Below are positions 16,486-19,093 of a stretch of 37,764 nt of DNA, one piece after another. Each line of letters opens with the position of its first letter. Within the stretch, counting starts at the first letter, position 1. The notes beneath the pieces were generated by a model. It was not told the origin of the DNA. It saw only the letters and a list, made by a program, of their open reading frames with translations, and did not search any database. The position numbers were made by a program, and so were the translations under genes. Location: IMG/VR virus record IMGVR_UViG_3300032228_000003, positions 1 to 37,764 of that record; one strand, given 5' to 3'. This DNA is from a virus.

Positions 16486-16545
16486 TTTAATACCTTTCGT
16501 TTTGTGTTTACTTACCTCCATTGTAAGCATGTTTTGATCTATTTT

Positions 16546-16561
16546 CTTGACCTAGATCAAG
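16546..16561. promoter_or_regulatory. Imperfect palindrome CTTGACCTAGATCAAG
   Basis: A 16-base near-perfect inverted repeat (CTTGA-YCTAGR-TCAAG with one mismatched pair), followed by ATTCTTGAA. It sits 60 bases upstream of the first leftward ATG and could be an operator for the left arm. Confidence 0.4.
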
Positions 16562-16610
16562 ATTCTTGAAATTAGTTATGCTCCAAAACCCTAATATAAA
16601 ACCAGGTTAA

Positions 16611-16625
16611 TGATAATCATTCTCA
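16611..16625. promoter_or_regulatory. Fur-box-like palindrome 1
   Basis: TGATAATCATTCTCA matches the 7-1-7 Fur consensus TGATAATNATTATCA at all positions but one. It lies about 125 bases upstream of the first leftward gene. Confidence 0.5.
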
Positions 16626-16641
16626 TATGGTTTAACTCTTA

Positions 16642-16684
16642 TATAAGACATAAGATATAAAACATAAGACATATTACATAAGAC
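16642..16684. repeat. Short ATAAGA repeats
   Basis: ATAAGA occurs four times in 43 bases, three of them as CATAAGA, in an AT-rich stretch lying between the two Fur-like sites. Candidate DNA-unwinding or protein-binding iterons. Confidence 0.4.
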
Positions 16685-16688
16685 TGAA

Positions 16689-16703
16689 TGAGAACTATTC
16701 TCA
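16689..16703. promoter_or_regulatory. Fur-box-like palindrome 2
   Basis: TGAGAACTATTCTCA, a perfect 6-3-6 inverted repeat (TGAGAA/TTCTCA) sharing ATTCTCA with site 1, 78 bases away. It is weaker against the Fur consensus than site 1. Confidence 0.45.
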
Positions 16704-16711
16704 ATTGATAT

Positions 16712-16993
16712 TGCCTAATTCAACTCACTAGATCCATGCATGGGATTGTCATTGCCTAGTCATTAGCTAGTGCCTTGATAAGTGCTTATTGCCTAGTGTC
16801 TGAATAGTGCTCTAGAGTGTGGTGTCACTACTCTCTCACTCTGCAATTGACTGCCTAATTATTAAGCAGATAACTAAACAACATGGGGGAGGGGAGGTAG
16901 TTGCTCTGTATTTAATTATGATGCCTCTCAAACACCTAAAAAGGAGAATTAAGACTGCCTAATAATTAAGCAAACTGCCTAATATTTAAGCAG
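16712..16993. repeat. TGCCTA motif array with three 19-bp palindromes
   Basis: TGCCTAAT or TGCCTAGT occurs at 16713, 16753, 16790, 16852, 16956 and 16976 (plus TGCCTT at 16771), all on one strand. Three copies are full near-palindromes of the form CTGCCTAAT-N-(A/T)TTAAGCA: 16851-16869, 16955-16973 and 16975-16993, the last two in tandem 20 bases apart. Confidence 0.65.
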
Positions 16994-17040
16994 ATGTCCA
17001 GGTAGGAATATGTTCAATGTAATCAATGGCTTATAATAAA

Positions 17041-17068
17041 AGAAGATAGATACTGATGTCTATCTTTT
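17041..17068. terminator. Hairpin flanked by A and T runs
   Basis: AAGATAGA (17043-17050) pairs with TCTATCTT (17059-17066) around an 8-base loop, extendable to about 10 pairs, followed by TT and preceded by AAAAG. AT-rich and with short T-runs, it may insulate the two arms, but terminator strength looks low. Confidence 0.4.
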
Positions 17069-17088
17069 AAAAGAAGATAAAGATGAAC

Positions 17089-17191
17089 TGCGGAATACGC
17101 TCTAGCTCTGCTCACCAGACCCGCATAGTCTCCCTATAGAGGGGTTCATAACTCAGCTTCCCTATACCCCTAAGACGTGCTCCGTAGGGAA
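17089..17191. other. GC-richer structured island
   Basis: Within AT-rich DNA, this stretch shows several nested inverted repeats: TGCGG/CCGCA (17089-17093 with 17121-17125), CCCT/AGGG (17132-17135 with 17140-17143), TTCCCTA/TAGGGAA (17158-17164 with 17185-17191) and inner ACG/CGT. Alternative pairings are possible because CCCTATA occurs twice. No open frame and no tRNA fold were found. It could be a small RNA, or a packaging or replication site. Confidence 0.45.
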
Positions 17192-17207
17192 TTAAGTAAA
17201 ATAAAGC

Positions 17208-17236
17208 TTGACAAATCTAAGAAGTTGTGGTATAAT
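17208..17236 (+). promoter_or_regulatory. Main rightward (late) sigma70 promoter
   Basis: TTGACA (17208-17213), 17-base spacer ending TGTGG, TATAAT (17231-17236): both boxes perfect, with an extended -10 TG. It drives the terminase and head genes through a leader of about 135 bases that carries the operator cluster. Confidence 0.92.
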
Positions 17237-17292
17237 AGTTGTACTAAGAAGAAGACTAAGAGCAAACTAGGTAAAAAACAATAAGAACCAAA

Positions 17293-17324
17293 ACTACTTA
17301 AGACTACTTAGTAAACTAATTAGT
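17293..17324. promoter_or_regulatory. Operator cluster in the late leader
   Basis: ACTACTTAAG (17293-17302), ACTACTTAGT (17303-17312) and ACTAATTAGT (17315-17324, a perfect palindrome) in tandem. Sites 1 and 2 include a 20-base block identical to 13543-13562. They lie about 50-80 bases past the predicted start of the late transcript. Confidence 0.7.
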
Positions 17325-17378
17325 GTAAGACTTTAAGTTTATTTCTATTTGTTCTCTGCGTTAGCAGGTAAAGGATAT

Positions 17379-17843
17379 ATGTCTCAAGATGATGTTGTTT
17401 TGTCGCAGCAATCTAAATCAATTGATATTGCTGTGTCTCCTCTCAAGGTGGATGTCTCAAATGAAGTAGTGCCAGCACAGCCCCGTAGGAGAGGTCGTCC
17501 TCCTAAGTCATTGGTGCAGAGCAAGAAGAAAAGAAACAAAGTAGGCAGACCAGTAGGCGATGCAGGACGAATACAAGAATTTAAAGCAAGATTATTATCA
17601 ACCAGTGGTACTAAAGTAATTGACACAGTACTGCGTAAAGCATTAGATGATAATGACAAGGATCAAGTGGCTTGCCTCAAGATGTGCATGGATAGATTAC
17701 TACCCACATCATTATTTGAGAAAGATGCTAAAGGACAACGTAATGCAGTAACGATTAACATTACTGGATTAGGTGAAACTAAAGTAGAAGCAGTAGAAAC
17801 AATAGATGCAGAGATAGTAGATTATAATGAGGTAGATGAATGA
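17379..17843 (+). CDS. Putative terminase small subunit with AT-hook-like motifs
   Basis: A 154-residue putative small terminase that would recognise phage DNA for packaging. Identity is inferred from position directly before the large subunit (ATGA overlap) and from a DNA-binding character. It has PRRRGRPPK (about residues 35-43), a canonical AT-hook core, and a second weaker NKVGRPVGD, then a helical region (RIQEFKARLLSTSGTKVIDTVL) and an acidic C-terminus that may contact the large subunit. The ATG at 17379 follows AAAGGA; the frame extends to a TTG at 17349 that lacks a Shine-Dalgarno. Confidence 0.7.
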   Translation: MSQDDVVLSQQSKSIDIAVSPLKVDVSNEVVPAQPRRRGRPPKSLVQSKKKRNKVGRPVGDAGRIQEFKARLLSTSGTKVIDTVLRKALDDNDKDQVACLKMCMDRLLPTSLFEKDAKGQRNAVTINITGLGETKVEAVETIDAEIVDYNEVDE

Positions 17844-19093
17844 ACCTCAGCTTCGAGTTACTACCTTGGCAAAAAGAAGTATTCCAGGATAAGACTAGGT
17901 TTAAAGTTATTGTTGCTGGACGACGATGCGGTAAATCAAGATTATCTGCTGTAGCATTATTAGTAGAAGGACTACGTTGTCCACAAGGTTCTGCTGTAAT
18001 GTATGTTGCTCCTACTCAAGGACAAGCCAGACAGATTATCTGGGATGTTCTAATGGAACTAGGAAGAGAAGTGATTCAGAGTAGCCATGTGAATAATATG
18101 GACATCACTTTAATTAACGGAGCTAAGATATATGTTCGAGGTGCTGATCGTCCAGACACATTACGTGGGGTTAGTCTTACATATCTTGTTTTAGACGAGG
18201 TAGCTGACATAAAACCAGACACCTGGGAGAAGGTCTTAAGGGCTTCTCTATCAGACAAGAAGGGTTCTGCTCTCTTCATAGGAACTCCTAAGGGTAGGAA
18301 CTGGTTCTACGATATGTACAACCTTGGTCTTACAGACGAAGATGAAGAGTGGAAGTCATGGCACTTCACTACCAAAGATAACCCACTAATTGATCCTAAA
18401 GAGATCGAAGGTGCAAGAAAGACATTAAGTAGCTTCTCATTCAAGCAAGAGTATGAAGCTTCTTTTGATAACGCAGGAACAGACTTATTCAAAGAACAAT
18501 GGATTGAGTACGGTGAAGAACCAAGCGATGGGGTATACTACCTGGCAATCGACTTAGCGGGATTCACTAATACCAACTATTCAGAGTCTCGTAAGAAGAA
18601 GTTGGATGAGTCTGCAATTGCTGTGGTTAAGGTCACAGATGATGGTGTTTGGTTTGTAAAGAAGATTGAGCACGGTCGCTGGGATGTCAAGGACTGCGCT
18701 GCACGGATTCTAAAGAACATCAAGGAGTTCGAACCTGTAGGTGTAGGGATGGAGCGAGGCACAGTTAGAAACGCTGTGTTGCCCTATCTGAGCGATCTGA
18801 TGAGGTCGAACAACACATATGCTACCATTCAAGACTTAACGCATGGCGGTAAGAATAAGACAGAGCGTATTGTCTGGGCATTACAGGGACGATTTGAACA
18901 TGGTAAGGTAATCCTAAATGAGGATGAGGACTGGAAAGAGTTCGTAGACCAGCTCCTAATGTTTCCTACCAACCAAGTACACGATGACTTGATCGATGCT
19001 TTAAGCTACGTTGATCAACTCGCTGTAACAAGCTACTTCATGGATGACGGTGAAGATGATTACGAACCAACTGATTTTATTGCGGGGTATTAA
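17840..19093 (+). CDS. terL: Terminase large subunit
   Basis: A 417-residue packaging motor with ATPase and nuclease domains. The ATPase shows Walker A GRRCGKS at residues 27-33, Walker B LVLDEVADI (about 113-121), and the coupling segment FIGTPKG (about 150). The RNase H-like nuclease has YLAIDLAG (first Asp, about 238), GVGMERGT (about 299), and HDDLIDAL (last Asp, about 385-392). It starts inside the small-subunit stop (ATGA) and is followed by a TAATG overlap. Length and motif order fit podovirus/headful terminases; the packaging mode is not decided by sequence alone. Confidence 0.95.
   Translation: MNLSFELLPWQKEVFQDKTRFKVIVAGRRCGKSRLSAVALLVEGLRCPQGSAVMYVAPTQGQARQIIWDVLMELGREVIQSSHVNNMDITLINGAKIYVRGADRPDTLRGVSLTYLVLDEVADIKPDTWEKVLRASLSDKKGSALFIGTPKGRNWFYDMYNLGLTDEDEEWKSWHFTTKDNPLIDPKEIEGARKTLSSFSFKQEYEASFDNAGTDLFKEQWIEYGEEPSDGVYYLAIDLAGFTNTNYSESRKKKLDESAIAVVKVTDDGVWFVKKIEHGRWDVKDCAARILKNIKEFEPVGVGMERGTVRNAVLPYLSDLMRSNNTYATIQDLTHGGKNKTERIVWALQGRFEHGKVILNEDEDWKEFVDQLLMFPTNQVHDDLIDALSYVDQLAVTSYFMDDGEDDYEPTDFIAGY

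Follow-up and report, generated by a model that had tools for sequence, protein, structure and literature searches.

At glnA-type promoters the NtrC enhancers, and at rrn promoters the Fis sites, are paired, helically phased and placed roughly 100-180 bp upstream, and the Fis consensus carries the core GNNYAWWWWWTRNNC. The Caulobacter NtrC motif obtained by ChIP-seq is reported to be related to the E. coli Fis and NtrC motifs, and the protein targets glnBA, glnK and the ntrB operon and acts at sigma-70 promoters (PMC10274813), while the core NtrC regulon has been given elsewhere (PMC5343134). On the phage side, T4-like cyanophages carry predicted NtcA boxes, which are sites of a host global nitrogen regulator (PMC3037559).

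Here we analysed a 37,764-bp IMG/VR virus record (the window) whose control region carries three palindromes. Based on sequence comparison, we propose, with a probability of roughly 0.6, that they are paired operators for a host helix-turn-helix regulator of Fis/NtrC type, which would couple phage transcription to a host signal. Like the cyanophage NtcA boxes, they would be host-regulator sites predicted in a phage genome; however, NtcA is a CRP-family protein whose cyanophage sites are spread over the genome, whereas the candidate Fis/NtrC-type sites form tandem pairs, often beside terminase genes (PMC3037559). The window sites share with the Pseudomonadota Fis/NtrC operators (dusB-fis, dusB-ntrBC, ntrBC and glnB promoters) a palindrome of 17 bp, TGCYTAWWWWWTARGCA, whose centre is A/T and whose arms carry TGC, and an arrangement in tandem pairs, which in bacteria front ntrB, nirB and amtB. 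They differ in lying in a phage control region, as a pair plus a third site, with no nitrogen gene nearby. Similar to glnA-type NtrC enhancers and rrn Fis sites, they are paired, helically phased and at a similar distance upstream of a promoter; unlike at classical NtrC enhancers, no sigma-54 promoter was identified here, and the leftward promoter of relatives has a sigma-70 consensus. Literature searches turned up nothing linking NtrC to phage late promoters, and among the papers listed none dealt with Fis sites and terminase.

Layout of the control region and its palindromes

The 818-bp noncoding region at 16531-17348 is the divergence point of a leftward replication module (ribonucleotide reductase, exonuclease, Gp2.5-like protein, PolA-type polymerase, primase-helicase and GP88) and a rightward packaging/structural module (TerS-like ORF, TerL and portal). 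Its features and the first rightward genes are as follows.

16712..16719, + strand: half-site TGCCTAAT, a TGCCTA occurrence with no good second half, possibly a weak or relic site
16753..16769, + strand: degenerate site TGCCTAGTCATTAGCTA, by inspection two mismatches from TGCYTAN5TARGCA
16790..16797, + strand: half-site TGCCTAGT, present only in the closest relatives
16823..16850, - strand: putative leftward (replication-module) promoter zone, weak in the window and assigned there by position
16851..16869, unstranded: palindrome P1, CTGCCTAATTATTAAGCAG, an exact TGCYTAWWWWWTARGCA match overlapping the -35 zone of the leftward promoter region
16885..16894, + strand: GGGGGAGGGG block (G-run), near-invariant in 52 aligned relatives and among the most constant control-region elements
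16955..16973, unstranded: palindrome P2, CTGCCTAATAATTAAGCAA, first of the conserved tandem pair, starting 71 nt after the G-run start
16975..16993, unstranded: palindrome P3, CTGCCTAATATTTAAGCAG, second of the tandem pair, 20 bp beyond P2
17033..17062, - strand: promoter-like TAGACA-18-TATTAT, reading left through the P2-P3 pair, only partly conserved
17089..17125, unstranded: 37-nt element TGCGGAAYACGTGCWAGC...CCCGCA (TGCGGAA...CCCGCA) with complementary ends, conserved in nearly all relatives
17208..17236, + strand: consensus sigma-70 promoter TTGACA-17-TATAAT with TG extension, for the packaging/structural module, conserved in relatives
17379..17843, + strand: putative terminase small subunit, named for its position before TerL, starting at an ATG inside ORF 17349-17843
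17840..19093, + strand: terminase large subunit (PHROG phrog_2, E 1.1e-46)

The initial annotation had described six TGCCTA motifs in one orientation and three 19-bp palindromes, two of them at 20-bp spacing, and the motif positions confirm this description. TGCCTA occurs on the + strand at 16712, 16753, 16790, 16852, 16956 and 16976 and nowhere on the - strand within the array, and the imperfect palindromes span 16851-16869, 16955-16973 and 16975-16993. The motif is expected 0.37 times in the noncoding region, and because it is not enriched over the whole window (22 observed against 24 expected), its clustering is the signal. A chance origin of the array was rejected, with three exact TGCYTAWWWWWTARGCA sites observed against 0.0009 expected in the window. 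P3 departs by one mismatch from the consensus given in the initial annotation. The palindromes are asymmetric at position 4/14, where C stands opposite A, and all three contain GCYTAWWWWWTARGC, in agreement with the Fis core.

Two further elements had been singled out around the palindromes. A TTGACT does precede P1 but has no matching -10. The ribosome-binding-like AAGGAG at 16941 is replaced in relatives by AAAAAGGAG, AAAAAGTTA or AAAAAGTGG, and since it is not conserved it is not a lost ribosome site. The leftward promoter of the window itself has a poor -10, and the perfect sigma-70 promoter before TerS lies 215 bp to the right of the palindromes.

A PHROG search with the putative small subunit gave no match; the protein contains an AT-hook-like RRRGRPPK and a second GRP motif. 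The 37-nt element, for which an Rfam search gave no match, could be a packaging, RNA or protein site, and a search of the region for a tRNA or an RNA family found none. Separately, a Fur-box-like sequence, TGATAATCATTCTCA, at 16611-16625 matches 14 of 15 positions of the 7-1-7 consensus, with a weaker one, TGAGAACTATTCTCA, at 16689-16703, 78 bp away; the 14/15 match is kept in relative L009, and other relatives reach only 11/15.

Position and orientation of the sites in relatives

Relatives were defined as 80 contigs whose TerL is 84-99% identical, and the control region was compared across 49 non-redundant regions containing the GGGGGAGGGG block, allowing each site up to one mismatch. One or two sites occupy fixed positions in 38 of the 49 regions. 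Counted from the start of the G-run, the first normally begins at 69-73 nt and the second at 90-93 nt, so that the distance from the block to the P2/P3 positions is fixed; the P2 place is filled in most of these 38. A left-hand site is additionally present in 13 of the 38, the window and nearly all of its closest relatives having one, and the place of P1 is occupied in L185, L009 and L011. The upstream half-sites are retained only in the nearest relatives. The other 11 of the 49 regions have no right-hand sites, indicating that these sites are not essential. In deep relatives (TerL 53-68% identical) a site upstream of TerS is kept while its flanks differ.

A leftward promoter of consensus type, TTGACA-17-TATAGT, is recognisable in some ten relatives. 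Measured from the start predicted for it, the G-run sits at -77 to -81 and the first palindrome roughly at -157 to -160; a second palindrome, in those relatives that have one, is found near -178 to -183. This constancy may in part reflect common ancestry. The G-run, which resembles that of mitochondrial CSB II, was also considered as part of a sigma-54 promoter; judged by eye, the window and part of the relatives can be fitted to GG-N10-GC while others cannot, and no consistent -24/-12 match was found around the G-run in relatives.

The asymmetric C/A position is reversed in several relatives, meaning that the site has been flipped, which favours a dimeric protein reading double-stranded DNA and disfavours an RNA hairpin. 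One terminator-like match does exist on the - strand at 16993-16975. However, flipping would place the continuous hairpin on opposite transcripts in different relatives, no clean U-run follows, and the site also fronts bacterial gene starts, leaving RNA hairpins or transcription terminators a barely plausible account of the palindromes.

The number of sites per relative, 0-3, bears on the suggestion that the array represents iterons of a replication origin. The region separates the divergent arms, the cumulative GC skew has its minimum at 16-17 kb, and a DnaA-box-like sequence lies near 3 of 37 arrays collected from phages (below). Skew follows gene direction, however, as the + strand genes at 1-1000 also show positive skew. 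Moreover, copy number drops to one or none among close relatives, repeat number is not conserved, no linked initiator gene was found, and the same sites front unrelated terminase genes. We therefore regard iterons as highly improbable. By contrast, the other suggestion of the initial annotation, cooperative operators, is supported in kind by the tandem same-face spacing, the fixed position, the flipping of sites and the bacterial counterparts at regulator promoters.

Operators could also serve a phage-encoded repressor or activator not recognised by its sequence. In relatives L092, L034, L019 and others, TAGG-N7-CCTA and ATAGCT-type palindromes upstream of the G-run overlap the leftward -35, as if operator types were exchanged between phages, and this resembles a swapping of operator specificity. 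No helix-turn-helix protein was found among the left-arm ORFs tested against Pfam or PHROGs, though, and the occurrence of one site in phages with unrelated genes and before bacterial dusB, ntrB and glnB favours a host protein, making a phage-encoded regulator improbable.

The same site in unrelated phages and in bacteria

A search of IMG/VR for tandem pairs returned 110 stretches, where by our own estimate fewer than one is expected by chance. Spacing in the 37 non-redundant arrays is bimodal, with one peak at 19-23 bp and another at 29-30 bp; because only spacings of 19-31 bp were searched, the trough between the peaks is meaningful and the edges are not. The centre is about 97% A/T in the 93 sites of these arrays. 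A G-run lies within 300 bp of 11 of the 37, against 6.7% of random positions, an enrichment that is partly kinship because the 37 include members of the window's own family.

In several unrelated phages, arrays lie within 10-80 bp of TerS or TerL. The terminase genes that neighbour arrays belong to different families, among them TerS of phrog_57, phrog_641 and phrog_1482 and TerL of phrog_2 and phrog_38. Terminase adjacency is not universal, as other arrays neighbour a primase, a RuvC-like gene or unassigned ORFs. These positions bring in the main rival, namely that the palindromes belong to a cos or pac region where a host protein would assist terminase architecturally, in the way IHF does at lambda cos. 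Besides proximity to terminase genes, some arrays fit into a narrow interval separating two genes of the same direction, a place that does not call for a promoter, and in the window the conserved 37-nt element stands between the array and TerS. On the other hand, sites in the window's family are 390 bp from TerS and keep a constant distance to the leftward promoter, contig ends of relatives show no pile-up at a single position here, and in bacteria the corresponding sites belong to gene promoters. Fixed genome ends at the control region were rejected, as the contig starts of relatives do not coincide. Packaging assistance is thus unlikely, although we give it more weight than iterons, hairpins or a phage-encoded regulator. 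As a side observation, at L179:14160-14300 two sites, one of them degenerate, adjoin a parS-like TGTTTCACGTGAAACA upstream of an unrelated TerL.

Among cultured phages, Puniceispirillum phage HMO-2011 resembles the window in that an exact site lies between divergent genes and near a G-run, and differs in that this site is single, is not beside a terminase gene and lies in an unrelated genome. Sites were absent from HTVC115P, CRP-171 and Pasto and from the stretches read of HTVC104P, HTVC027P, phiM5 and Pyei1. The polymerase and primase of the window have pelagiphages and roseophages as closest cultured relatives and, uncultured records aside, proteins beside three unrelated arrays are closest to those of Sinorhizobium, Paracoccus/Roseobacter and Pelagibacter phages. 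For four array-bearing phages, the nearest cultured relatives have Alphaproteobacteria as hosts, and judging from these protein similarities an alphaproteobacterial host is likely for the window phage.

The tandem pair was also found in 15 bacterial contigs, in seven of them immediately ahead of ntrB or within the promoter region of dusB/ispDF, in two before nirB and in one before amtB (gene names from reading translations; ntrB, ntrC, ntrX, dusB and fis also by NCBIfam matches). In one 1.4-Mb bacterial genome the pair 7 bp before ntrB represents the only two sites, and another genome has sites at both the dusB/ntr promoter and the glnB-glnA promoter. Of 190 alphaproteobacterial genomes, 46 have single sites, with no reversed-control match listed for any genome; of 120 Burkholderiales genomes, 20 have sites and two have control matches. 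Among 29 alphaproteobacterial loci that were read, dusB or ntrB accounted for four, glnB for one and uvrC, with the site upstream of it, for about ten; in Burkholderiales dusB accounted for 4 of 19. dusB heads an operon that continues into fis in Burkholderiales, into a gene for a Fis homologue and ntrYX in some Alphaproteobacteria, and into ntrBC in others. The same sequence as in the window thus fronts known or expected Fis/NtrC targets (dusB-fis, dusB-ntrBC, ntrB, glnB, nirB and amtB), whereas the initial annotation had recognised no matching family. Taken together, the sequence comparisons support well the identity of the site, its fixed geometry, its recurrence in unrelated phages and its match to bacterial sites.

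The uvrC loci form a group of their own, with TGCYTAWWWWWTARGCA upstream of uvrC in many Alphaproteobacteria, at L313, L314, L316, L323, L325, L327, L328, L330, L331 and L337; we know of no Fis/NtrC role or regulation that explains it.

Candidate regulators and possible meaning for phage control

The recognition helix NRNTLRKK is common to the Fis-like and NtrC proteins of these dusB operons, and the alphaproteobacterial Fis homologue matches E. coli Fis structures. NtrX was disfavoured as the binder because its helix differs (ERSALHRK). NtrC alone was weakened by the distribution of its gene, ntrC being present in 22 of the 46 site-bearing alphaproteobacterial genomes and in 100 of the 190 overall, which gives no association with ntrC alone; dusB-fis operons account for some of the site-bearing genomes without ntrC. 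Because the presence of the site does not track ntrC, we do not claim an NtrC operator and, after reading the dusB operons, use the broader term Fis/NtrC-type.

We infer that the palindromes are bound by protein, that the binding regulates in one direction or the other, and that the host uses either NtrC or a Fis homologue. Depending on the host, the binder would be NtrC or a Fis homologue that stands alone. Two of its dimers are predicted to occupy the tandem pair next to each other on the same DNA face and, in the window and its closest relatives, a third site is available nearer the leftward promoter. Bound protein would activate the leftward replication-module promoter or repress it by DNA looping, and may also affect the rightward packaging promoter. 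Situated between the modules for replication and packaging, the sites would then resemble in placement an element for upstream activation or looping, through which phage transcription could be coupled to a growth or nitrogen signal of the host. A further and tentative idea is that many unrelated aquatic phages of Alphaproteobacteria independently came to carry paired operators for host NtrC (or Fis) where their packaging/late module begins, making the lytic programme conditional on the nitrogen or growth state of the host; we consider this possible but less probable than the operator reading itself.

The 17-bp site also points to a conserved and unexplained occurrence upstream of uvrC. If the operator reading is true, host regulators of Fis/NtrC type would be a widely used input to phage gene control in some abundant aquatic bacteria, parallel to the role that NtcA is thought to play for cyanophages. 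A single 17-bp site would then predict which phages sense the nutrient or growth state of their host, and it may help to narrow the hosts of uncultured phages.
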